DNA of 64,000 nt from Allomyces arbusculus. Its lineage: Eukaryota; Blastocladiomycota; Blastocladiomycetes; Blastocladiales; Blastocladiaceae. Below the pieces are notes generated by a model that did not search any database, was not told the DNA's origin, and saw only the letters and a program-made list of their open reading frames with translations. The translations under genes and the position numbers were made by a program. The DNA is taken from contig JADHYV010000020.1 in the NCBI GenBank assembly GCA_027604705.1, forward strand, positions 186,001 through 250,000. Direction: 5' to 3'. Shown here piece by piece: positions 3,182 to 49,790 of this stretch (position 1 is the stretch's first letter; each line of letters begins with the position of its first letter).

Positions 3182-6100
3182 ATGGCCGACCACGACGGCG
3201 CCGCTACACCCGCACACCGCGGCCGCGGCCCGCTGTCCGATTCGGAAGACGACATGGGCGAGCCGACCATGCGCGACGTCGACATGGAGGACTCGGAGGA
3301 GGAGCCCGAGGACATTGACGAGGAAACCGAGGCCGACCGCGGATTTATTGCCGACGACGACGAGGACGACGACGCGCCCGTGCGCATGCCCGCCGCCGAC
3401 GACGACCGCGACGTGCGCAAGCGCCGCAAGAAGCGGAAAAAGGTGGTCGAGGAAGAAGAGCTCGACGACGATGATTACGACCTGGTCGAAGAGAACACGG
3501 GTCTGAAGGTCAAGGAGTCGCGCAATTTCAAGCGGCTCAAGAAGCGCAAGGACCGTGAAGAGGAGGAGGACTACGGTTACCAGCTCCGCGCGCCCAACAA
3601 CGACGTGGCCAATATCTTTGACGACGTGCCCGAAGACTATGATTTGCCCGAGGACGATTTCATTGTTGACGACGAGGTGCCCGAGGAGGAGCAGGTCTAT
3701 CGCAAGGCACAGGAGCGCGAGCGCAACCGAAGCCGCTACTACCAAACCGACCAGGTCGTCTCGGAGCAGTTCGTATTCTGTTTCTTCACTTTTTGCTCAA
3801 TCCGCTCCTCTTCCGCTCGCCAATGAACGAACGAACCAACCAACCATGCCATGATGACCCCACCTCTACAGAGCACTTGACGATATGCACGCTATCTTTG
3901 GCGACGGCACCGAGTACGACTGGGCTATTGAGCTGCAGGACCGCGACCGCCGGCCCGTCGACGACGACTACATACGCGACCAGGAGCAGGACATCAAGCT
4001 CACCGACGTCTTTGAGCCATCGGAGGTGGTCGAGAAAATGCTCACCGACAAGGACGAGGAGGTGCGCGTGACCGACATTCCAGAACGCATGCAGGAGCTC
4101 GGCATTCGCCGCGCCGACCCGGCGCAGCTCGACGAGTCGGTCGACTGGTGCACGCAGGCCGTCTTGCGCAGTCGTCGCTTGGCCGATGACGATCCACATG
4201 GCGCCGTGGCGATTCGCGATGCTGTGCAGACGGTGCTCAACCTGTTGCGTCAAGAGTTTCTCGAAGTGCCGTTCATCCTCTACCACCGCCGCGACTACTT
4301 CCGCCCGGCACTCAACGATGAGGAGCTCTGGCTGATTGCCGACGCCGACGAGGAGCACCGGTCGTTTTTTCAAAAGCGGCGCGCGCTGTTCAGCAAGTAC
4401 GAGCGGCTGCAGTACGAGGACCCGGCGTTTCTCGATGCCTTCTACACGATTCGCACGCCCCGGCACATTGCCGATTTGAGCGACTACCTCAACTTCAAGC
4501 ACGCCAAGCGGCTAGCGCAGGTGCTGCAGAACGAGCAGGCGGTCGCGGGCCACAGGCAGCCCGTCAAGTCGGATCCAAACGATGTGTTCCGCACTGAATC
4601 CGTCGACTACCTGATTCACCTGTTTTGTTTACCGGAGCCGCTGCTCGTCGAGAACTTGCGTGCGCGCACGCAACTTCATATCGCGCCCAGCCCGTACACG
4701 ACGCTCTCTGAGGAAATGGCGCGCGCGACACCAAGAGGCGTCGACGTGAAACGGTTCCAGGCGGCGCTCATCAAGTACCTGGCGTCAACGCTCTTCCACA
4801 ACCCGGAGGTCCGGCTCTTCTACGCGACCGAATTCGAAGCCTCGGCGACCATTTCCGTGAGCCCGACTGACGTGGGCAAAAAGGAGATCGACTCGGCGCA
4901 CCCGTTCTACTACTTCAAGTACGTGACCAAGAAGCCGATTGCGACGCTGCAGAACGCACAGTTTCTCGACTACCTCGAGGCCGAGGCCAAGGGGCTCGTC
5001 ACGCTCGAAATCTCATTTGCGCAGCAGCACATTGTCTCGTCGCGCCTCAGCAACGCCTGGGTCACGAGCAGTTCCGACGAATGGAACGCGTGCCGGGTCC
5101 AGATTCTTAAGGCCACAGAGATGATGCTGTTTGAGCACGCGACGGCGACTTTGCGTGAGGAGTTGCTGCGCAGGGCGCAGTCGTATGTCGCGCGCGAATG
5201 CTCATCTAAGCTGCTCGAGGCCGTCATGGTCGCACCCGCCATGTCGACGCGGCCCGACGACCGCGACCGCGACAATTTCCTGCCCCAGTATGCGCGCGTC
5301 CTCGCGCTGTGTCTCGTACAACAGCACCGGTCCTACAAGGTGTTTGGCGCCGTTGTCGACTCGCGCGGCGAGATGCTCGACGTCTACACGGACGAGTTCA
5401 ATCTCCCGGAACTCGCCAAGATCATTGGCCGGTACGACCCGGAGCGCATCGTTGTGGGTCTGTGCACCAACTTTTACGCGTTCCGGCTCGTCCAGGCCGT
5501 CAAGGAGGTCGCGCAAGGGTACAACTTGCCCGTCGATGTCTTGTCAGACAACGTCGCGCTCGCCTTTCAAGAGTCGGCTGCAGCGATCAAGGAGTTCCCG
5601 GACCACTCGGTCCCGGTACGGCACTGCATTGGTCTGGCGCGGCAGCGGCAGGACCCGGCGCACGTGGCCGCGGCGCTGTTCCCCAAAGACGTGCTCAAGG
5701 TCCAGTTGCACAGGCAGCAGGCGCAAATCCCCGAAGACTTGCTCCTGCAGCACTTCGAGCGCACCATGGTCAAGTGCGTCATGGTCATGGGCGTCGACAT
5801 CAACGAGGCGTTTGACTGTCCGCAGTACTCGCACACGCTGCAGTTCGTCGCCGGTCTGGGTCCGCGCAAGGCCTCGGGGCTCTACAACAAAATGCTCTCG
5901 ATCGGACACTTGACGAGCCGCCAGAACCTGATCCTGTCCAAGTGCATGGGCCGGCGCGTGTTTATGAACTCGGCGTCGTTTATCCGCATCACGACCGGGT
6001 TCATGGACGAACGCTCGGGTGACCCGCTCGACGATACGCGCATTCACCCGGAGGACTATGCGCTCGGGCGGAAAATGGTGGCCGATGCGCTCGACGTTGA

Positions 6101-7343
6101 CGAGGTTGACGACCGCGACCCGAACGTGCTGTCGAAGCGCATTCGCGACATGTGGGCGCGCCGACGGCAACACGTGCTCGACGAGTTGCGGCTCGAAGCC
6201 TACGCCGATATGCTGCTGCAGGAAATGAACTTGAAGAAGTTTGAGACGCTGCACATCATCAAGGAGGAGCTGCAGTCGCCCTACAAGGAGCGGCGGCCGC
6301 CGTTGCACCACCCGGGCCCTGAGGAGTTGCTGGAAAAAGTGCTCGGTTCGCGACCGCAGGAGAACGTCCTCGTCAAGGCCACGGTCACGCAGGTGCGCGA
6401 CAAGATTGTGCGGCTTCGGCTGCCCAATGGCATGGACGCGATAATGTGGCCGCGGTGCGTCTCGCAGGACCGCGATTTTCGCGACGCCATCAAGCAAGGC
6501 CAGGAGATTGAGGGCGTCGTCATGCAGGTTGACATGGAGCGCGTGTGTCTGACGCTCTCGATGCTGCCGCAGGATATGCAGATTGCGCGCGAGCCGTCTC
6601 AGTACTCGACCACTCTCGACCAGTACTTTGACCGCGACCGCGCACGCAAAGACGAAGAGTTGCAGCGCGCGCGCGAACGCGCCGAACAGCTATTTGCGGC
6701 CACGACCAACCCGGCAGCGGCGACGGGGCCCGTCATGATCAAGCATCCGCTGTTCAAGCCATTCAACGCACAGCAGGCCACGGCGTACCTGGCCAAGCGC
6801 AACCCTGGCGAGGCCGTGATTAGGTTCTCGAGCAGGGGCGAAGGCCGGCTGACAATTTCGTGGCACGTCGTGCAGGGCATCGTGCAGCACCTCGAAGTCG
6901 TGCAGGACGCCTACTCGAAGCAGTACCGTATTGAGAACGCACGGCCGTCAAGTTCAGGCGGCGCACACGGCTACGGCCACCAGCACGTTGCAGACGTCTA
7001 CTACGACGACCTGGACGAGATTTTGTTCCGGTACGTCGAGGCGTGTTCCACGCAAGTCGCCAAGGTCACCAAGCACCGCAAGTATGTCGGTGGGCCGCGC
7101 GACGATCTCGAGCGCAAGCTTACGCGCGATATCAAAGCCGATCCGAATGTCGTCGCGTACGGGATTTGCCCGAACCCCGAGTTCCCGGGCTGGTTCTATC
7201 TGCTCTACCTGCACCAGCTCGGGCGACCATCTGAGCTCGGGTTCAAGGTCGTGCCGCGCGGGTTCGTGTTCCTGGGGCGCGAGTACCACGACGTTGAGGA
7301 CGTGATCAATGCATTCAAGAACTCGTTCCGGCAAATGCGCTGA
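3182..7343 (+). CDS. SPT6: Transcription elongation factor Spt6
   Basis: Histone H3-H4 chaperone and elongation factor that travels with RNA polymerase II. Exons are 3182-3768 and 3872-7343 with a 103-bp intron (phase 2). The junction reads VVSEQ-ALDDMHAIFGDGTEY, the conserved Spt6 motif; 1352 aa, slightly short for the family. The N-terminus (about 1-190) is acidic with a basic patch KRRKKRKK, as in the Spn1/Iws1-binding and nucleosome-binding region. The helical core contains the YqgF-like fold near 670, an HhH segment (GLGPRKASGLY) near 857 and an S1 domain near 1027-1095. The tandem SH2 module starts near 1153 with the phosphotyrosine-pocket motif AVIRFSSRGEG, and binds the phosphorylated Rpb1 linker. 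The start ATG has good context and the acidic N-terminus typical of the family. Confidence 0.95.
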
Positions 7344-33390: not shown

Positions 33391-34093
33391 GGGTGGTGGG
33401 TGTTGCGGGCTCGGCAGGCGGTGGGAAAGCGAGGCTACAGCAGGGCAATGGATTGCAGCAAGTTGGATCGTGTCGTCGTCGCTGGTCGCAGCGTCGTGCG
33501 GTTGGCTCACGGATGACGACGAAAGTTATGCGGCTGAATGAGTGGGAACGACTACTTTGCGGTAGGGGCGAGCAGGTGATCGACTGAGAGAGCCGTGATG
33601 GACCTGGCAGCGTGCGGTAACTCGGCAGATAGGCCTTTTCGTCCACCAGGCTCCGCCAGGTTACGCCGTTTCACGTTTGCCAACACGGCGCATTGCGTTT
33701 GCGTTTCGCTGCCTTTCGCTGATCATGCCTGGGTCTTTCGCGCCTTTCGCTGCATCGTCGCCACACGCCACGGCGCCACGCCACACCCCGCCGGCTGGCC
33801 TTGCAACTCCAACCAAACGTTCATCGCGCCCAGGCCGACAACCACCAACACGCCGACGACGACGACAACGACGGCGAAGGCAACCTCACGAGGCACCAAC
33901 ACATCGCGCTGCCGCACGAGCAAGATCTTATAGTCTACGCACGCGCGCACCTGCTGCGGTCTGGCGCCCGACAAGGACCCGCTGACGAACCCGCCGACCA
34001 TCGTCACGAACAACAGCCTCCTGGACGCAAGCATCCACCAAGCGTCGCCTGCACCCGAACCGAGCCCGACTGAGCAACAGCTAGAACCACGCC
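33391..34093. promoter_or_regulatory. Divergent spacer between RBM42 and the Bem1-like gene
   Basis: 703 bp carrying both promoters; C-rich near the plus-strand start. No motif can be named with confidence. Confidence 0.4.
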
Positions 34094-36106
34094 ATGTCGT
34101 CGACTATTGCGGCCGCGGCCAAGACGCCGCCCAAGTTCGTCATTCGCGCGCGCGCTGAGTTCAAGCCGTCCTCGCCCATTGAGCTCTCGTTCAAACGCGG
34201 CGATTTTTTCCTGGTCGTGAATCCGAACCCGCCCACGGCGCTCGCGCTCGGCCGCCCGCCAGACCCGCCCGACGGTGCTGATGCCGGCCTGATGCGCCGT
34301 CCCGCTGGCGTCGGGCCCTGGCTCGAAGTCATGGACCCGCTGCGCAACGTCAAGGGTCTGGTCCCGTCCGACTTCTTTGACGTGATTGAACGCACAGGAC
34401 ACGCACACCTCGCCGCGTCAAGTGGAGGTGGGTCGGTCGTGGGCATGGCGCCGTCGAGCCCCGTCCCGGCATCGGCCAGCGTCGTTGGCGGTAACGGCTA
34501 CGCGCCAGCAGCAGCTGCACCATCGCCGATGAGCCCCGCTGCGGTGGCCCCGGCTGCCGAGGGGGGCGCACGCCGCCCGTCGTCATCGTCGCCACCACTC
34601 GTCTACCCGGCCGTTGTCCAGTACGATTTCGAGCCAGAGAACCCGGATGAGCTGCACGCGCTCGCTGGCGATCATGTCCTGGTGCTCGCGCATTCGGGGT
34701 TCGAGTGGGTCGTCGCCAAGTTTATCGGCAAGCTTGGAAACCCGGGCTTGATCCCGATTTCGTACCTGCAAATCCGGGACCCGATCACGAACGCGCCCTA
34801 CTCGGATTTCGCGGCACAGGTCCTGCAGCAGGGCAGGCTGTTGTCGCTACGTGCGTGGAAGGCCCGGCAGCAAGCACTCGCCGAACACGCCGTGCAGATT
34901 GGTCCGGGATCACCAGCACCTGCGCCAGCGAGCATGAATGGTCACTATTCGTACTCGCACGCGTCGCACGCGCACGATTCGCTCGCCACCAAGGAGCGTG
35001 CCCCGACCCGCATCTCGTCGCGGTCGCAGTCGTACGCCGGGTCGGACCTGCCCGATGGATCTGCTGTCGGCACGAACCTACCTCCACCCCCGCTCCGGAC
35101 ACGCGGATCCCTCTCTGCCGGCGCTGCCTCGCGCGACGTCTCCCCATCACCCACCTCGGCAACCACCACCTCCACGACTCCCTCGGCCACGGGCTATCCG
35201 CGCGTCGCCGCCGCGACCGTCCCCTCCTTCGAGCCGCGCGGCACCGACTACGTCTACGCGATTCACGCGACGCGCATCGACCACGCTAAATTCATCCTCT
35301 ACCGATTTAGCGACGCGCTCTACGACATCCATCTGCAGCTGACCACGTGGGCCGCGCGCGATCCGGACATGGTCAATTCGGGCGTACCGCTCCCGTCGTG
35401 GCCTGATGACGTGCCCGTTGGTGTTCCCGCCGACTCAGATGCAGTCGCGACCGCGCGGCGGTACCGGCTCGACGCGTACCTGAGCGCCCTCCTTGCGCAC
35501 CCGTTGGCCGCGAGGATCGCGTCGCATCCAGCCGTTGCGCAGTTTTTCCGGCCACGTGCGGGGGATAAGATTCGTCGCCCGTCGACGCGCGCGGCGGCAG
35601 CGGCAGCGGCCTCGTCGTCATCGCCTGTACCGCCGCTCCCTAGCACCGGGCCACCGCAGCCGCAGCCGGCAGCGCTGATGCGCACGAGCCCGGCGTCGTC
35701 GGTACCCGCATCGCCCGTCTCGGCGAATACGCCCGGGGGGGCCGACCTGCTCCCGCCGCCGGGGATGCCCATGCCACCACCGCCGGCGATCCCCGAACAA
35801 CAGCCGCCGGCACACCACGTCGAGCTCGCGCGCGCGGCGGAACTGTCGCTGAAAATCAAGATCGTATTTGGGCACAAAGTGATCGCGATCCGGTGCAACC
35901 CGCACACCATCACGCATGCATCCCTCCTGGCCAAGATCGCTGAGAAGCTCTTTAATGGTGATATTGGGTCCATCAATCGGCTCGTATGGCGGCGGCCTGC
36001 GGGTGGGGACGCGTCTGCACCCGAGTTCGTGGATGTCGAGGATGAGGACGAGTTGGCACGGGCCGTCGCCGAGTCGGGCGAGAAGATGCTCCTGTATGTC
36101 CAGTGA
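34094..36106 (+). CDS. BEM1: Bem1/Scd2-like polarity scaffold (SH3-SH3-PX-PB1)
   Basis: Single exon, 670 aa, with the full fungal Bem1 domain order. SH3-1 is about 15-100 (KFVIRARAEFKPSSPIELSF, GPWLEVMDPLRNVKGLVPSD). SH3-2 is about 173-230 (VQYDFEPENPDELHALAGD, FIGKLGNPGLIPISYLQI). The PX domain is about 379-500 (DYVYAIHATRIDHAKFILYR). The C-terminal PB1 is about 586-670 (LKIKIVFGHKVIAIRCNP, VDVEDEDELARAVAES), with an acidic OPCA-like patch. Bem1 links Cdc42, its GEF Cdc24 (through PB1) and PAK kinases at sites of polarised growth. The linkers are long and Pro/Ser-rich. Absence of introns is notable beside its multi-exon neighbours. Confidence 0.92.
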   Translation: MSSTIAAAAKTPPKFVIRARAEFKPSSPIELSFKRGDFFLVVNPNPPTALALGRPPDPPDGADAGLMRRPAGVGPWLEVMDPLRNVKGLVPSDFFDVIERTGHAHLAASSGGGSVVGMAPSSPVPASASVVGGNGYAPAAAAPSPMSPAAVAPAAEGGARRPSSSSPPLVYPAVVQYDFEPENPDELHALAGDHVLVLAHSGFEWVVAKFIGKLGNPGLIPISYLQIRDPITNAPYSDFAAQVLQQGRLLSLRAWKARQQALAEHAVQIGPGSPAPAPASMNGHYSYSHASHAHDSLATKERAPTRISSRSQSYAGSDLPDGSAVGTNLPPPPLRTRGSLSAGAASRDVSPSPTSATTTSTTPSATGYPRVAAATVPSFEPRGTDYVYAIHATRIDHAKFILYRFSDALYDIHLQLTTWAARDPDMVNSGVPLPSWPDDVPVGVPADSDAVATARRYRLDAYLSALLAHPLAARIASHPAVAQFFRPRAGDKIRRPSTRAAAAAAASSSSPVPPLPSTGPPQPQPAALMRTSPASSVPASPVSANTPGGADLLPPPGMPMPPPPAIPEQQPPAHHVELARAAELSLKIKIVFGHKVIAIRCNPHTITHASLLAKIAEKLFNGDIGSINRLVWRRPAGGDASAPEFVDVEDEDELARAVAESGEKMLLYVQ

Positions 36107-40380: not shown

Positions 40381-41040
40381 TCAACACGTCGACTGCTTCA
40401 ACCTGACCGCCGCGTGCAACCGCCGTGCCTCCTCCTCCTCGTACTTGTCGCTGAGTTCGACCCGCATCTGCGCCAGGTCCCGGTCTTTGAAATTAACTCG
40501 TCGTTTCTCCTTGATGTGCAGTTCGGCAATCATCGCGTCCTTGTCCCTATCGCTTGCAGCGCTTGTCATCTTTTCCGATATGCCAAGCGAAAATCCGTGA
40601 GCTGCACAGTCGCTGCGGTTAGAGCAGACCGCCCATCAACAAGCGGAACATGCGTACTGGCCCAACCCCACGCCCTCAAAGTAGGTTCAAACACAAGCCG
40701 CTAGAAGACAAAATATTCTGAAACGGTGTTTCGGGGCGGGTCAGATACGCAGATGGCGCAGTCGAGGAGACAAGTCAGTTCATGATGAGGTGGGACGGTG
40801 CGGGAGAAGTACCAGCTCGCAACAGACACGATCAAGGTGAGTGAACGACAAGCTGCTTCGTTCGGGCGAGAAAATGATTTGAGAACATGAGGAACGCAAG
40901 GTATATTTCCCAAGTCACCTGCCGCCGCCACCACGCTGGGCTCGCGCATCAAATTCAGTCGTCTCCTCACCTTCCCATCCAATCACTTGATTAGGCCCAT
41001 CCATCTTCGAGCCAATCCAGTCATACCAATCCTTCTTAGC
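40381..41040 (-). CDS. Uncertain small gene with two candidate exons
   Basis: Two plausible coding pieces are seen. 41040 to about 40915 reads KKDWYDWIGSKMDGPNQVIG, WEGEETTEFDARAQ, RGGGGR, ending at TGA 40915-40917 or at an overlapping donor GTGACT. It begins directly after the TAG that ends the beta-tubulin tail. 40381-40569 encodes a charged helix (ELHIKEKRRVNFKDRDLAQM, YEEEEARRLHAAVRLKQ) with its own ATG and stop. They could be exons of one gene, parts of two genes, or an alternative 3' extension of the tubulin transcript. No family recognised. Confidence 0.3.
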
Positions 41041-43004
41041 CTAGAACCCGCCCGCCGGCGACCCCGGCATTGGCGCAGCCAGCGGGTTCCCAACGGCCGC
41101 AGTCACGGGCGCCGGCTGCTGCTGTTGCTGCACTGCCGCGGCCGTGGGGGCGACGGGCGATGAGAGCGGCAGCGGCGCGGCCGCGCCGAACCCGCCAGTA
41201 CCGATCGGCGAAGTCGCGGGCGGCGAGCTCGCGCCAAACCCGCCCTGCATGCGCATGGGCGAGATGGGCGCCGGCGCTGCACCGCCGAACCCGCCCATGG
41301 CCATGGGCGCGGCCGCCACCTTGATCGGCGCCGATGTCGGGGTCGCGGGGGACTTGGTGCGCGACGGCGACGGCATGCGGATGTCGTCGTCCTCGTGGTC
41401 AACGACTGCGTCCTGTGGTTGGAAGTGCAAGGTGGTGAGTCGATGTGGGTTTGATCACGAAGTGCATCACGGCAGCGAAAGAAACGCACTTGGTACTGCT
41501 GGTACTCGGACACGAGGTCGTTCACTACAAAGCGGCGCCGGATCCACAGTCAGCGCACGCGGCAAATACGTCGCCGAAGGACGCAGTAAAAACGTACTGT
41601 TCGACTCGGCCTCGGTAAACTCCATCTCGTCCATGCCTTCGCCCGTGTACCAGTGCAAGAAGGCCTTGCGGCGGAACATCGAGACAAACTGCGCATTGAT
41701 ACGCTTGAACAAGTCTTGAATCGACGTCGAGTTGCCAATAAACACCGACGACATCTTGAGCCCGCGCGGCGGAATGTCGCACACGGCCGTCTTGACATTG
41801 TAGGGGATCCACTCGACGAAGTGCGACGAGTTCTTGGCCTGCATGTTGCACATCTGATGGTCGACCTCCTTCATCGACACGCGGCCGCGGAAAATCGTGG
41901 CCACCGTCAGGTACCGGCCGTGGCGCGGGTCGCACGCCGTCATCATGTTCTTGGCGTCAAACATTTGCGTCGTGAGCTCCGGCACCGTCAGGGCGCGGTA
42001 CTGCTGTGACCCGCGCGACGTGAGCGGCGCAAACCCGCACATGAAGAAGTGCAGCCGCGGGAACGGGATCATGTTGACGGCCAACTTGCGCATGTCGGCG
42101 TTGAGCTGCCCGGGGAACCGCAGGCACGTGGTCACGCCCGACATGACCGCCGAGACAAGATGGTTCAAGTCGCCGTAACTCGGGTTGGCGAGCTTGAGCG
42201 TGCGGAAGCAAATGTCGTAGAGCGCCTCGTTGTCGATGCAGAAGGTCATATCGGCATTCTCGACGAGCTGGTGCACAGAGAGCGTCGCGTTGTAGGGCTC
42301 GACGACCGTGTCCGACACCTTGGGCGAGGGCGCGACCGAGAACGTGCACATCATGCGGTCCGGAAACTCTTCGCGCACCTTGGAAATGAGCAGCGTGCCG
42401 AGACCGGACCCGGTGCCACCGCCCAGCGAGTGCGTGATCTGGAAGCCCTGCAGGCAGTCACACGTCTCGACTTCCTTGCGCACTACGTCGAGCACCGACT
42501 CGACGAGCTCGGCGCCCTCGGTGTAATAGCCCTTGGCCCAGTTGTTGCCGGCACCCGACTGCCCGAAAATGAAGTTGTCGGGCCGGAAGAGCGCGCCGTA
42601 GGGGCCGGCACGGACCGAGTCCATGGTGCCGGGCTCAAGGTCGATGAGGATCGAGCTAATTCACGCGGGATATCGTGTCAGATCGGAATTGTCAAACCAA
42701 TTTGCTTGCCCAAGATGCCAAATAAACAAAAAGACGTACCGCGGCACGTATTTGCCACCCGAAGCCTCATTGTAGTAGACATTGACGCGCTCGAGCTGCA
42801 GCGGGTTGTCGCCCGAGTAGGCACCGGACGCGTCAATGCCGTGCTCGTCCGAGATCACCTCCCAGAACTTGGCGCCGATTTGGTTACCGCACTAAGTGGA
42901 ATACCGTCCGCTGAGGTCAGTGTATGCCCGGGAACGCGCCGACGTACGCGAGCCACAATAAAGCAGCGTACCTGGCCGACCGCGAGGCAGACAATTTCAC
43001 GCAT
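41041..43004 (-). CDS. TUB2: Beta-tubulin with a long low-complexity C-terminal extension
   Basis: GTP-binding subunit of microtubules. Exons, 5' to 3', are 42972-43004, 42740-42891, 41598-42655, 41490-41524 and 41041-41412 (549 aa; family about 445). Introns are 80, 84, 73 and 77 bp. The start is the MREI autoregulation tetrapeptide ([11 protein letters not shown], diverged from the usual HIQAGQ). Then come [40 protein letters not shown], the nucleotide loop [10 protein letters not shown] and [17 protein letters not shown]. The helix [12 protein letters not shown] is restored by a 35-nt exon. The last exon continues [10 protein letters not shown], the remnant of the acidic tail, then about 113 Ser/Thr/Pro/Ala-rich residues with GGFGG, GGFGA, GGFGAA and a Gln run before TAG. 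All junctions are in phase and the body has no breaks. Confidence 0.93.
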
Positions 43005-43840: not shown

Positions 43841-46260
43841 ATGAACGCGTCGCCGCCGCGCTGGGAGCCCGAAGCCGCGTGGTCAACGTCGCGATGGCCA
43901 GCCTCCTCTCCCTCATCTGCACCAGCCTTGGGCCTCGCCGGAACTTATTCATGGACGCGCCAAGTCGACGAGTCTTGTGCGCCCTCTTCAAGCACCCATT
44001 TATTCGAATCTGGCGCGTTAGTGCGAACGGATCAAGTTGCGTCACGTTCCAAAAACGACGTCGCTTCCGAGCCTGCTCCGTTTGTAGCATCGTCGCGGTC
44101 GCGTTCTGTCACCCCCACCGACGCTTCACGCTGTCTATGCGACAACGGTATCGTCGACGACCTGAGAGGGCTGTTTGACGATGAGAGCACGGCGCCAGCA
44201 GTTTCTGTCCATGAACACGCCGAGCAGCCTCGCAGTGCCATGACCGCCGACGACTCGCGCCCTGTGCCAGCTTGGACGCCAGGTCCGCCGAGTGTCTCCG
44301 ACGACGGAGACTGGGTGTCCGTCGCCGAGGCGGCGGACGGCGCTGGCTCGACTGTGAAGCGCAAATCTTCAGCTTCCACACGCGCGACAACTGCCGACGC
44401 TTTCGATTTCGGGGCCGAGTTTGGCAATCCAGCTCCGCTCCCGGTCGTTCGCGCCGGCTTGAACGAGCAGCTCTCTCTCGGTGGTCGGTTCCGCTCTGGT
44501 GGACCGCGCCGGTCGCGTTCTCTCCCTGTCGGCGGCCCTGGTCGTGCCATTGACCGCGGTCGGCCTGTGGCGGTGCACCCGCTCACCAAGTTGACGCTCT
44601 TCCGCGACCCGCCTGCACGGCCCTACATCTTTTACCACCGGATCCCGGCCCGTCTCGCCACCATCTTGGGTCGGCACGAACGTGCCCTGTCGACACTCCA
44701 GGCCCAGCTCGTCGATGTAACGGCGCACAACGCTGACCCAGCCGATATTGTCGGGCTGACGGTGAGCGGTGTCGACGCTCAGATCACGATGCGCGCAATC
44801 CAAGATTTGCTCGGTTTCCTTGACGCTGTGCCGTACACCGACTTGATCATACTTTATGTGCAGTCGAAAGCGACCGAGAGCGAGGCGGGGAAGGTTCGGT
44901 GGGTGCAATGGCCGTTTCCGGTCGTCGACTTGGACGTGACGGCACCGCCATTCTATCATTTGGTCGCAGTCAAGCCTGAATCGGGTTCGTCGACATCTTT
45001 TCAGCGACTTTGTTTGTCCAAGTCTTCGCTCACTTGCCTCCGCTCGCAGCCTCGCCGCCCAGGGTCGACCAGCAGCACCTCCATCACGCGCAATCCAACG
45101 GCCCGCTGCAGCACTGTCAATCCGTCACGATCCTGTCCGAAAAGACGTGGTTCACGACCGCCAAGCTCATGCGGTCCTACGCGCGCTACTACCTCAACAT
45201 CCTCACCAACACGCCGCCGCGGTTCGGTTCGCTTCCATCACCCATTCCGCACGTTTTCGACGGAGGCCCGCGCATGGCCATCAAGTACACGGCGACGCTC
45301 GGCAAGCATCTCGTCGCGCACCGCAACGTGCGCAACCCGTACCTGCTCACGTCGCCCACAATCCCGCTCAGGTCGTTGCCCGGATTTTACAACGACGGCG
45401 ACCTCAAAGGCTCATTTGTGTTCTACCTCGCCCCGCCCGCCGTCGCGCGCATTGAAATGGCCCTCGCCGAGTTCCAGTTTGAGCGCGATCCGGACAGGCC
45501 CAATGTCGACGAATACGTGCTCGTGCGCGTCACGCTGCCGGTCGACCGCGACGCGGAACGACTGTTCCTGGTGCCGGATATGAAGTATCACGTCAAGATC
45601 CCGCTCGCGACGGTGCCGCGCCGCGCGTCAGGTGGATCAGGGGCGGCACCAGTCCCGCCACTCGCCGCCGACACGCATATGCGCATTGCCCGTGTCGCGC
45701 GTGTGCCTGTCAAGGCGACCCTCGCGACGGTTGTACCCAACATGCACGACGTGCGGCTGCGGCAGGAACTGCGCACTACGGCCACGACGCACGTTGTCGG
45801 CGCAAATGTGCGCACCCATGGGCTGCGGTCGACGAGTAAGCATCTTGCGCTCCTCGACGAGCAAGAAGTGAGCGCGTGCATTGATGCTGCGCGGAACGCG
45901 GTTGCTGGGTATGACTTCGATGCCAAGAACGGCACGTTTCGTGCGATTTCGCCGACGACCCGAGACCGGCAGCAACGCCAGCGTCGGCGCGAGGTGGAGA
46001 GTGGTGGGCGTGCAGCAGTCGTGCTCCGGCAAGTGCGCCGGTTCCGGCATGCGTCGCAGTCGACGCGTGTCCGTGCCAAAGTCGTGCGCGTGTTCCCATC
46101 GGCCACGGGTGGCGCTGCGCTCGCGACGCCGTCGTACGTGGTGTTAGAGATGACGCTGTGCGTCACGGACGAGGAACATGCCGACGCCGCCAAGTTTCGA
46201 GCAGTGTTGGACCAGTTCCGCGACCTGCTTGTGAAGGTGAGCGAGAACCTGTCGTTTTGA
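43841..46260 (+). CDS. Large protein of unknown family
   Basis: Two long frames in the same orientation. The first runs from ATG 43841 to about 44935, the second from about 45072 to TGA 46258-46260, with an intron of roughly 70-140 bp whose borders I cannot fix (donor candidates near 44936; acceptor candidates up to 45074). About 250 Ser/Pro-rich residues precede a folded-looking region (HPLTKLTLFRDPPARPYIFY, QLVDVTAHNADPADIVGLTV, VPYTDLIILYVQSK). After the intron come TILSEKTWFTTAKLMRSYAR, KYTATLGKHLVAHRNVRNPY, LPGFYNDGDLKGSFVFYLAP and a basic C-terminal third. No catalytic signature, membrane helix or known domain is visible. It looks like a lineage-restricted protein. The exact start is uncertain. 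Confidence 0.6.
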
Positions 46261-46610: not shown

Positions 46611-49424
46611 TTACTTTTCACGCATCTTGACCCAAGCCTTCCCCGCGACTTTGCCCGTGCCCGAGGCGTTAAACTTGCCCGCACCCGTGTGCAGCTCGCA
46701 CTGCAGCGCCAGCAACACATCTCTCACATGCAAGCGCTTATGCCGTGCCTGCGCCGCCGCGGTCCCTGGAACCGGCACGCCCGCGCCCGCCGCTGCCGCT
46801 GCACCGGCTGACTGCCCCTTACCTGCACGCGGTCCGCCCAACAAATCTGCACGCCGCTTGGCCACAAGTGCAGCCGCGCGTTTCGCTGCCGCCGTTGCGA
46901 GGGAGACTCCCGCACCCGGCGCAGCCCCCGGGACAGCGGCTGCGATTGCGGCAGATGACGTGGGTGGTCCACCGGCCCCTGCACCGCCCATGGTCATCCA
47001 CGACCGCGCAGCACCGCCGGCAGCGAGGAACGCGGTCGTGTTGGCGTTCCGCTGCCGCGCCTCTTCGGCAATGTTGGCACGCTCCTTGCGCTCGCGTTTC
47101 TTGGAGAGTGCGGGCATCGATGCAGCCATGGACGCGGGCGCGGCGGGTGGTGGCGGTGGTGGCGGCGGTGGGGACGCGTGGTCGCCGTCGACGGCCATCG
47201 CGTCGCCATTCGCTACGGCGGCAGGGGTCGGGGACGGGGCTGCGGGAGCGGCACTGGGGATCAATCCACGCGCACGCATAGCGGCATGTTCCTCGGCCGC
47301 GACCTGCAACGCGGCGTCACGAATATGCAGGAGCGCGAGCGTCGACTCTGGGTGATCGGCGAGACTCAATTCGTACGCGACCATTTTGGGCGCCTCGTCG
47401 GCCACGGCCGCATTGGCATCCGCCTGCCGCGCGGCGGCGAGCTGCGGGATCCGGAACGGGGTCATGAGCACCGGCGCCTCGCCCGGCTGCGAGACACCCA
47501 TGGCCGCCAGATCGCGGTGCAGGGACGCGCCGGTGCGCTGGTTGGCCGCGTGGACCGCGTCCGTGACGACTGTACGCAGACGTTCTTGCAGAGCGAGCGC
47601 GAGGAACTGCAGAGCCGACTCGGACACGTGTGCAAGCCCTTCACGCCCGGCAATCTTTTCCATGCGCGCTCGGATGGCCGGCACGTTCACGTGCAATCGC
47701 TCGACGGCGGCCTGTGTTGCGGGCGCGCCGGTGCCGGCTGTGCGCGTGCGCAGCATTTCCTCCTCGTGTTCGAGGTTCACGCCGAGCGTCGCGAGCGCCT
47801 GGTCCTCATCGTCACCCGCGGATTTACGGCCGCCTTTAGTCGTGGCGGGCGCCGAAGATGATGCGATGGTTGATCCCGCCGCGGTAATACTGCTTGGGGT
47901 CAGCGACGCCGACGCCGGCTGCGTCGTGAGCGAGCCCGCGGTGCTCGGCGGAATTCCGGGAGGTGCCATGTACGAGAACCCAGCGAGCCCAGCATACATT
48001 TCCGGCGTCATGCCCGCGGTCGAGAACGACATGGGCATCGCGGCCATGGGCATAGTCGATGCGGCCGTGGTGCCCGGGATAACCATGGGCGACGCCCGCC
48101 CAACCGGGCCCGGGATCACGCCGGGCATCGGCGAGGTCGCGCTCGATCCGAGACTTTGCGGTGCCGTGAACGGTGTCGATGACGCGCTCGACGGGGTAGC
48201 CGTCGGTACCGCTGACGCGACGGCTGTGGCGGGCGCAGTTGCAACAGGCGGCTTGACGGTTGCACCCGGTGTCACGGCACGCGGTTTCTTGGCCGCAGTC
48301 CCACCCGCAGGACCCGCTTGCCCGGGCCGTTTCCGTGCCGCGGCCGTGGCTGGCTTACCTGCGACCGCCGTGTTGGGCCCCGAGCGCGCCAAGTGCTCCA
48401 TGGCTGCGAGCGACTTGAATTTCTCGGGCCCGAGCAATGCGTGCGCGCGGTCCAAGAACTCGTTTGCCGAAATGGCCTTGGTGCTAAAAGAGTTCCAGAG
48501 GACGGTGATTTTCTCGCGGATATCGGGTGCGACTTCATTGATGACAGACCCGAGCGTCGCGTTCGGGGCCGCGAGGCCCGGCATGGACGCCGGTGTGGAG
48601 GTCGGGACGACGGGCGGCGGGATCACTGGTGCGGCGGATGCGGGAGCAGTTGCTGGTGCCGGTGCTGGTGCCGGTACTGGTGCAATCGTCACGGGCATCG
48701 TGGGAGCGGGGGACGCGACGCGGGCTGCCACTGCCGCGGGCGTCCCGACGACAGCCGGCGACGTGCCGCGCGACGGTGGTGCCGGGGTCGCGGTCATGGC
48801 AGGAGACATGACGGGACTGCTGGCAACGCTTCCTGGGCGCGACCACGTCCCCAAACCCGACGGCGGGTGCGCGGTGGGCGTCGCAGCCGAGAGCGATGGC
48901 GACGCGGCAGCTGAGACAGACGCGCCTGCGGGAATGCCGTACATGGCCGAGCTCGCAAACTGCGGCGCGGTTGCGGCCAGGTGCATGGGCGGCGGCCGCA
49001 TCAGGAACGGTGCGTACATGCGATTGTACATGTGGTACATCCCAGCGGCGGCCGCGGCGGGGTAGGCGGCGGCCTGCGGGTGCGCGGCCATAATACCGGC
49101 GGGCATCATGCCGGCGGGCGCTGTCGGGACGTGTGGCGGCGGGACGGTGCCCGGTACGGAAGCGTAGGACGGGCGCGCGGCAGCAGCGGCAGCAGCAGCC
49201 GCGGCCATGGCGGCCGAGGACGCGGGGGCCGGGACAAGCGGCGACGCGGCGCGCGAGGCCGGATTGGCGGCAGTCATGGCGGCGACCTGCGGCTGGCTTG
49301 CGAGCGCGGTCGGGGTCGGGATACGCGCGTGCTCGAGCGGCTGGATCTGACTGAGCAGGGCCTCGACGTCGGCGGCAGCGAGCGGCACGCCTTGGGGCGG
49401 CGGGCCGCCGTTGGGAGTGCTCAT
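46611..49424 (-). CDS. TAF4: TFIID subunit TAF4
   Basis: Histone-fold scaffold subunit of the general transcription factor TFIID, partner of TAF12. Single exon, 937 aa. The first 290 residues are Ala/Pro/Met-rich and disordered. A compact helical segment near 295-340 (DIREKITVLWNSFSTKAISA, EFLDRAHALLG) resembles the RST domain. Another disordered stretch precedes the conserved C-terminal module: LATLGVNLEHEEEMLR, then histone-fold helices near 575-625 (VNVPAIRARMEKIAGREGL, VSESALQFLALALQERLRTV). After a charged linker (SKKRERKERANIAEEARQR) comes the family ending HKRLHVRDVLLALQ near 893. The start is the ATG at 49424, before MSTPNGG; the frame is open further upstream without an ATG in good context. 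Confidence 0.82.
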   Translation of the reverse strand: MSTPNGGPPPQGVPLAAADVEALLSQIQPLEHARIPTPTALASQPQVAAMTAANPASRAASPLVPAPASSAAMAAAAAAAAAARPSYASVPGTVPPPHVPTAPAGMMPAGIMAAHPQAAAYPAAAAAGMYHMYNRMYAPFLMRPPPMHLAATAPQFASSAMYGIPAGASVSAAASPSLSAATPTAHPPSGLGTWSRPGSVASSPVMSPAMTATPAPPSRGTSPAVVGTPAAVAARVASPAPTMPVTIAPVPAPAPAPATAPASAAPVIPPPVVPTSTPASMPGLAAPNATLGSVINEVAPDIREKITVLWNSFSTKAISANEFLDRAHALLGPEKFKSLAAMEHLARSGPNTAVAGKPATAAARKRPGQAGPAGGTAAKKPRAVTPGATVKPPVATAPATAVASAVPTATPSSASSTPFTAPQSLGSSATSPMPGVIPGPVGRASPMVIPGTTAASTMPMAAMPMSFSTAGMTPEMYAGLAGFSYMAPPGIPPSTAGSLTTQPASASLTPSSITAAGSTIASSSAPATTKGGRKSAGDDEDQALATLGVNLEHEEEMLRTRTAGTGAPATQAAVERLHVNVPAIRARMEKIAGREGLAHVSESALQFLALALQERLRTVVTDAVHAANQRTGASLHRDLAAMGVSQPGEAPVLMTPFRIPQLAAARQADANAAVADEAPKMVAYELSLADHPESTLALLHIRDAALQVAAEEHAAMRARGLIPSAAPAAPSPTPAAVANGDAMAVDGDHASPPPPPPPPPAAPASMAASMPALSKKRERKERANIAEEARQRNANTTAFLAAGGAARSWMTMGGAGAGGPPTSSAAIAAAVPGAAPGAGVSLATAAAKRAAALVAKRRADLLGGPRAGKGQSAGAAAAAGAGVPVPGTAAAQARHKRLHVRDVLLALQCELHTGAGKFNASGTGKVAGKAWVKMREK

Positions 49425-49790
49425 CGTCGCGGATTCGGGGTTGCGCGGCGATCGAGAAGTGAATGCGGGGAGTGGTGGGCCGTGGCAGCACGGAACGTCG
49501 CGAGAACGGCGTGGTTGCAGCAGCGCGGTGGTCGTGGCCGACGACTTGGCTGCAGGCCGCGAGGAGCGAGCAGGCGGTAGGCTTGGGCGCGACACGGCGA
49601 AATCCACGCGTCTTGGATGGAAGCGACAGGGCAATACGCGTGGATCTCACGTGTCGTGTCATGCCCGCTTTCTGTCTCGCAGGCAGTCGCGTCTCGTTGA
49701 CAGCGCCCGTTCCCGTTGCCGCCACGCACGGCAGCTTCTGCGAGGGCGAGAAACGAAGATAAAAACGAGCAAACTTTACGATGGGTTTTT
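49425..49790. other. Spacer between TAF4 start and FEN1-like gene stop
   Basis: 366 bp. TAF4 promoter and 3' UTR of the upstream minus-strand gene; nothing further. Confidence 0.5.

Follow-up and report, generated by a model that had tools for sequence, protein, structure and literature searches.

The C-terminal tails of tubulins are regarded as short, acidic and glutamylated, with a charge that probably guides motors and microtubule-associated proteins (MAPs). The gene described here lies in a stretch of 64,000 nucleotides of the Allomyces arbusculus genome (assembly GCA_027604705.1, contig JADHYV010000020.1, positions 186,001 to 250,000 of the forward strand; hereafter the window), and it is predicted to encode a beta-tubulin with a tail of 123 residues. 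The longest tubulin tail that we found remarked on in the literature has 48 residues and belongs to Toxoplasma alpha3-tubulin (PMC10056924). Like the Allomyces protein, alpha3 is a divergent isotype with a long, less acidic tail, and the reports suggest that it serves a special array (PMC10056924, PMC9294176). However, it is an alpha-tubulin, and the likeness is one of description. Tetrahymena BLT1 and BLT4 are likewise described as beta isotypes with divergent C-termini that lack EGEF and are proposed to be non-axonemal (PMC3382179). These two proteins come from a ciliate, are 471 and 458 residues long in total, and are likened to ours by these features.

No account of a long-tailed beta-tubulin from Blastocladiomycota was found among the titles and beginnings of abstracts listed from the open-access literature, a body of text that mostly excludes subscription papers and preprints. 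The sequence of the Allomyces macrogynus orthologue is already public, named simply tubulin beta chain, and no description of its tail was found in the same literature.

Evidence for the extended tail

The beta-tubulin gene runs from 43004 to 41041 on the minus strand, has five exons and encodes a protein of 549 amino acids. The predicted product is a beta-tubulin by its Pfam domains and by the solved relatives of the A. macrogynus orthologue (P0001). The joined protein scored 218.6 bits for PF00091 (Tubulin; cut-off 33) and 144 bits for PF03953 (Tubulin_C; cut-off 26.6). With P0001 as the query, the best match among solved structures covered residues 1-434 (E 2.9e-265), and all structure matches listed (best 60 of 72) were named tubulin or tubulin beta. 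Intron 4 (41413..41489, 77 nt; this and all other features of the gene lie on the minus strand) interrupts the YQ/DA junction with GT-AG borders, and its acceptor is the only AG that it contains. Exon 5 (41041..41412, 372 nt) joins in phase after EYQQYQ and encodes the complete tail, 123 residues followed by a TAG stop, of which 113 come after a 10-residue acidic start and the last three are GGF.

An earlier sequence-only reading had proposed an intact beta-tubulin continued in phase by this exon. The GT-AG intron and the presence of the same tail in A. macrogynus bear this out. The details that it had listed also hold: the 113 residues beyond the acidic start, three GGFG motifs (41284..41295, 41233..41244 and 41185..41196), a run of five glutamines (41116..41130; four in the aligned A. 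macrogynus orthologue) and an 11-residue stretch resembling proline-directed phosphorylation sites (41338..41370), whose SPSRT is common to the window and Sorochytrium tails.

Judged at the sequence level, the comparison with orthologues is the strongest evidence that the tail is real. Residues 424-549, which span the tail, were searched against 6731 candidates, limited to proteins 0.55 to 1.75 times the query length, and a single candidate reached E <= 1: the 548-residue beta-tubulin of A. macrogynus (E 4.7e-58). The frame of its tail is the same; 11 of the 122 aligned residues are substituted and one glutamine is missing, against 3 differences in the 426 residues of the body. Orthologues in zoosporic fungi do share the tail: the four found have tails of 51 to 122 residues, and none of them ends after the acidic start. 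Because relatives in the same phylum carry the long-tailed gene, it probably encodes a real, specialised microtubule subunit and does not reflect a reading error.

It is very improbable that the true transcript is short-tailed, with exon 5 or its long frame left untranslated. The orthologue models are all predictions, and models with long tails are often wrong. A further 12 of the fetched proteins seem to have tails of more than 50 residues; of these, five hold a second tubulin stretch and four (P0078, P0084, P0087 and P0095) list unrelated Pfam domains; the rest are P0068, P0079 and P0082, of which the last two have an ordinary acidic tail ahead of the extra sequence. The orthologues matter because so many of these models have second tubulin stretches or unrelated domains. 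Against a short-tailed transcript stand the matching A. macrogynus tail, which keeps the frame and differs in length by exactly one codon, and the related tail starts in three further proteins.

The base composition of exon 5 resembles that of the tubulin body: GC content at the third codon position was 0.87 in the tail frame and 0.88 in the body, as against 0.71 and 0.67 for the two remaining forward frames. However, one reverse frame also reached 0.87, with a codon-choice score of 0.207 against 0.227 for the tail frame. This test alone therefore leaves the strand unsettled. We also ranked 249 phase-0 AG sites, each with at least five codons after it, from roughly 5.5 kb of downstream sequence by the acidity of the next 15 residues. 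The acceptor in use came first, tied with a site at 40467 that opens a 28-residue peptide containing YEEEE (six acidic residues each). The tie would suit a short-tailed transcript, but the start of this peptide is unlike a tubulin tail, and it was rejected as an alternative tail exon; among the 12 best sites, which were inspected, the used one alone starts like the paralogue tail. Thus, as far as genomic DNA can tell, none of the other sites inspected offers a convincing alternative acidic tail exon, in agreement with the sequence-only reading. In a DNA search that by its method skips simple repeats, exon 5 matched the genome once, and a repeated origin was rejected on this ground.

A long-tailed subfamily and its conserved features

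A Pfam Tubulin search of the source genome gave at least 11 matches at no fewer than 8 loci. Two further beta-tubulins, for which the same genome had been proposed as a place to look, were found on contigs C15 and C7. Their candidate first exons read MREIVHLQTGQ, in line with the view that the CLAVGQ N-terminus of the long-tailed copy is diverged and suggests a specialised isotype. The two proteins are identical wherever both are readable and share one acidic tail, DATADDEGELDEEGDAEAEA, with 20 residues, a net charge of -11 and EGEL, and YQDA is read through uninterrupted, without intron 4. The introns of their genes (L003 and L002, respectively) differ greatly at the same place, measuring 494 and 129 nt. 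Because C15 and C7 encode conventional beta-tubulins, the genome retains an ordinary beta-tubulin beside the long-tailed copy, whose body is 87.1% identical to that of the C15 paralogue. A locus on C37 ends in EEY and resembles what we take to be a conventional alpha-tubulin.

The long-tailed copy shares with these paralogues the MREI start and the tail start QDA..D; it differs in having 123 tail residues with a net charge of -1. The long extension is present as the sequence-only reading had described, and the start of the usual tail is retained, so that the tail is an extension of the normal one. Wholesale exon replacement was accordingly rejected as the sole account. An extension together with an intron at YQ/D in the long-tailed copy fits better with the sequences at hand.

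The subfamily was delimited among 211 distinct proteins, fetched from the tail search and two homology searches, one with the whole-length protein (best 120 of 7236 matches) and one with the first 60 residues of the Sorochytrium protein (best 120 of 2606). The pattern C[LI][AS]VGQC occurred in four of the 211, although 202 contain the GQCG stretch, and QYQDAVVD was confined to the same four (QYQ in 174); 144 of the fetched proteins start M[RK]EI.....GQC. The four are P0001 of A. macrogynus (tail of 122 residues), P0057 of Blastocladiella britannica (117), P0062 of Sorochytrium milnesiophthora (51) and a metagenome protein, P0061 (54). The three named species belong to Blastocladiomycota in the NCBI taxonomy.

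The subfamily was picked by its N-terminus and tail, and the body tree alone is independent of those traits. This unrooted tree, with N-terminus and tail excluded, comprised 24 sequences: the window protein, the two paralogues, the four orthologues and 17 further proteins, the last being all other fetched proteins of 440-470 amino acids that start MREI and contain Y[QEN]QYQ, with the remaining fetched proteins left out. The five subfamily members were separated from the 19 others with support of 97.6 (SH-aLRT) and 99 (UFBoot); the order of P0061 and P0062 was weakly supported (51.1/63). Six positions distinguish the two groups (C6, A/S8, A170, Y347, S373 and V429), and the combination of C6, [AS]8-V9, A170, Y347, S373, DAVVD and a tail longer than 50 residues was present in five of five members; V9 by itself also occurs in P0198. 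These sequences point to a paralogous beta-tubulin isotype that is so far known from Blastocladiomycota, represented by three named species, the source genome and one metagenome protein.

In the predicted tails, it is not the FG motif that is conserved but the succession of a short acidic knob and a stretch nearly devoid of acidic residues and rich in Ser, Thr, Ala and, in part, Pro. The knob (41383..41412, net charge -6) appears to be a remnant of the usual tail; it carries DAVVD in all five members and has a net charge of -6 or -7 throughout. Beyond it, the tails of the window protein, P0001, P0057, P0061 and P0062 continue for 113, 112, 105, 42 and 37 residues, with 5, 5, 6, 2 and 1 Lys or Arg residues and 0, 0, 0, 1 and 0 acidic ones; the knob was taken to end at whichever acidic residue comes last among the first 16, a rule that itself strips early acidic residues and in this respect tells against our interpretation. 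Ser, Thr and Ala are abundant in this segment in all five, and Pro in the three longer tails. Whole tails have a net charge of -1 in the window protein, P0001 and P0057 and of -5 in P0061 and P0062. The window tail is acid-free beyond residue 10 and thus departs from the short, strongly acidic tail that is usual for, though not a defining feature of, beta-tubulins.

The sequence-only reading had called the tail nucleoporin-like. FG nucleoporins carry GGFG in low-complexity sequence, and in an interaction tail of this type the GGFG motifs would act as stickers that bind transport factors or nucleoporins, tether microtubules to the nuclear envelope or form condensates. In 20,000 shuffles of the window tail, three or more FG were rare (p = 0.0046) and three GGFG never appeared, so that the motifs, to which the terminal GGF may be added, exceed what composition predicts; A. 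macrogynus retains three FG as well. For the subfamily as a whole, however, the label is not supported: FG counts were 3, 3, 1, 0 and 0 in the window protein, P0001, P0057, P0061 and P0062, and the FG repeats are thus not conserved as a nucleoporin-like domain would require. The Blastocladiella tail contains GYG and GFFG, yet its FG count is at chance level (p = 0.19), and the tails of P0061 and P0062 contain no aromatic residue. Nucleoporin FG domains are also denser in FG than 3 per 113 residues. The tail search matched A. macrogynus and no nucleoporin, a weak test for nucleoporins because of its protein-length limits. Taken with these counts, an FG-type function is improbable.

The same shuffles, which covered the window and Blastocladiella tails, gave an excess of S/T-P pairs in both (eight in the window tail, p = 0.005; seven in Blastocladiella, p = 0.012). 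This excess, together with the DAVVD knob and nearly acid-free segment conserved from Sorochytrium to Allomyces, speaks against neutral drift, in which an isotype that no longer required an acidic tail would have acquired a low-complexity extension without a specific function. Drift would agree with the wide variation of tail length (51 to 123 residues) and sequence among genera, with a tail that changes far faster than the body, and with the presence of another Ala/Pro-rich frame in the GC-rich window (46611-49646). We consider it unlikely.

Possible role on non-axonemal microtubules

We tentatively favour the view that this Blastocladiomycota isotype, probably non-axonemal, uses its two-part tail as a long brush on microtubules, perhaps in the nuclear cap array of the zoospore. 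The ancestral acidic tail would have become two-part, the short knob of DAVVD and a few Asp or Glu residues being followed by the long, nearly acid-free segment. Pairing with conventional alpha-tubulin and polymerisation into microtubules would be expected because the tubulin body is intact. On the microtubule surface the tail may then act as a steric brush, which would mask the acidic surface and lower its negative charge, offer few sites for glutamylation, limit or filter the motors and MAPs that bind, and determine the spacing between microtubules or to membranes. Proline-directed kinases could tune such a brush through the S/T-P sites.

The long segment is probably disordered. AlphaFold2 gave no useful model of P0001 alone (mean pLDDT 34.6) and one of low overall confidence with a 24-row alignment (mean pLDDT 49.8, pTM 0.52); the alignment had 30 rows, of which six (P0097, P0126, P0098, P0109, P0063 and P0128, mostly with internal duplications) were lost before folding. 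In this low-confidence model, residues 435-548 had no predicted helix or strand and a pLDDT of about 26-36, a value that says little in favour of disorder because large parts of the body have poor models as well. By the random-coil rule 0.55 N^0.588, the end-to-end distance is about 9 nm for 123 residues versus 3.2 nm for 20. The tubulin dimer repeat is 8 nm, and since the coil exceeds it, neighbouring tails would overlap if most dimers carry them.

The projection and proline-rich domains of MAPs such as tau are disordered, rich in Pro and Ser and weakly basic, with S/T-P sites outside the microtubule wall. The similarity of the tail to them is in composition only, and here the segment belongs to tubulin itself. 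The more specific proposal of a built-in MAP-like projection domain, in which a dense, near-neutral brush replaces the acidic tails of the tubulin code and the isotype builds the phylum's characteristic microtubule cone around the zoospore nucleus and its ribosome-filled cap, appears unlikely.

In the report on the Tetrahymena isotypes, the lack of EGEF and of the outer-arm dynein motif at residues 55-57 are two of three features that suggest a non-axonemal function (PMC3382179). EGE[FLYA] is absent from all five tails of the subfamily, and both paralogues have EGEL. At residues 55-57 the paralogues have TGG, and the motif (S/T)G(G/A) is missing in three of the five members (GSG in P0057, AGN in P0061 and SNG in P0062; SGG in the window protein and P0001). 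These absences would argue against the use of the isotype in the zoospore axoneme or kinetosome, with a tail working there. Such a flagellar isotype would suit a phylum with flagellated zoospores, the SGG kept in two members and the common lack of EGEF in the comparison set, but we regard it as rather unlikely.

The isotype would most likely serve outside the axoneme, chiefly in the microtubules of the zoospore cell body, which extend from the kinetosome around nucleus and nuclear cap. In one report, cell-body microtubules from kinetosome to nuclear cap are a defining trait of Blastocladiomycota, and in two chytrids microtubules were observed in the flagellum only (PMC9616733). The nuclear cap array is our first guess because its taxonomic distribution matches that of the isotype. 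Through the isotype, a microtubule array that has been described as diagnostic of the phylum may also become accessible to molecular study. Nature offers here a beta-tubulin with roughly six times the tail length of its paralogues and no acidic residue beyond the tail base, a ready-made test of the effects of tail charge and length.

Several points weigh against a non-axonemal brush. Both axoneme criteria are weak here because, of the 19 beta-tubulins used for comparison, 13 have no EGE[FLYA] and seven no (S/T)G(G/A) at residues 55-57, and the window protein and P0001 themselves retain the latter motif. The tails of P0061 and P0062 are half as long, poor in Pro and S/T-P (one and two pairs) and at -5 not near neutrality, so that a brush suits the two genera with longer tails best. 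Fast evolution of the tail beside a slow body (11/122 versus 3/426 residues changed from A. macrogynus) also tells against it. The link to the nuclear cap array, as a first guess, is drawn from a taxonomic coincidence in few species, and the same report adds that electron microscopy leads one to expect small bundles of microtubules in chytrids (PMC9616733). No chytrid protein was named among the matches listed (best 120 of 7236 and best 120 of 2606), and because only these were listed, the protein searches do not establish absence from chytrids. The expression, localisation and function of the isotype are inferred.

Gene layout and neighbouring loci

The five exons measure 33, 152, 1058, 35 and 372 nt and the four introns 80, 84, 73 and 77 nt, all with GT-AG borders. 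Exon 1 (42972..43004) encodes the N-terminus typical of the subfamily, which is the same in P0001 and P0062 and differs by one or two residues in P0061 and P0057. The frame is maintained through exon 2 (42740..42891), exon 3 (41598..42655), which holds the bulk of the tubulin body and matches both Pfam domains in the joined protein, and exon 4 (41490..41524), which encodes the end of the last helix. At residue 198 in exon 3, presumably within the benzimidazole-binding site, the usual Glu is replaced by Met in four subfamily members and by Ala in P0061; Glu is also missing there in two of the 19 comparison beta-tubulins.

Further tubulin-superfamily genes occur in the source genome at L004, L006, L007 and L008, the first three of which we take by eye to be gamma-like, epsilon-like and delta-like, respectively. 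Within the window, the open frames flanking the beta-tubulin gene at 44980-46260 (plus strand) and 40381-40635 (minus strand) had no Pfam match at E <= 0.01. By eye, a single open frame of 1161 codons at 3858-7343 (plus strand) looks like transcription elongation factor Spt6, and one at 34085-36106 (plus strand) resembles a Bem1-type scaffold with SH3, PX and PB1 regions. The frame at 46611-49646 (minus strand, 1011 codons), a second Ala/Pro-rich stretch in the window, has an end that appears TAF4-like by eye.
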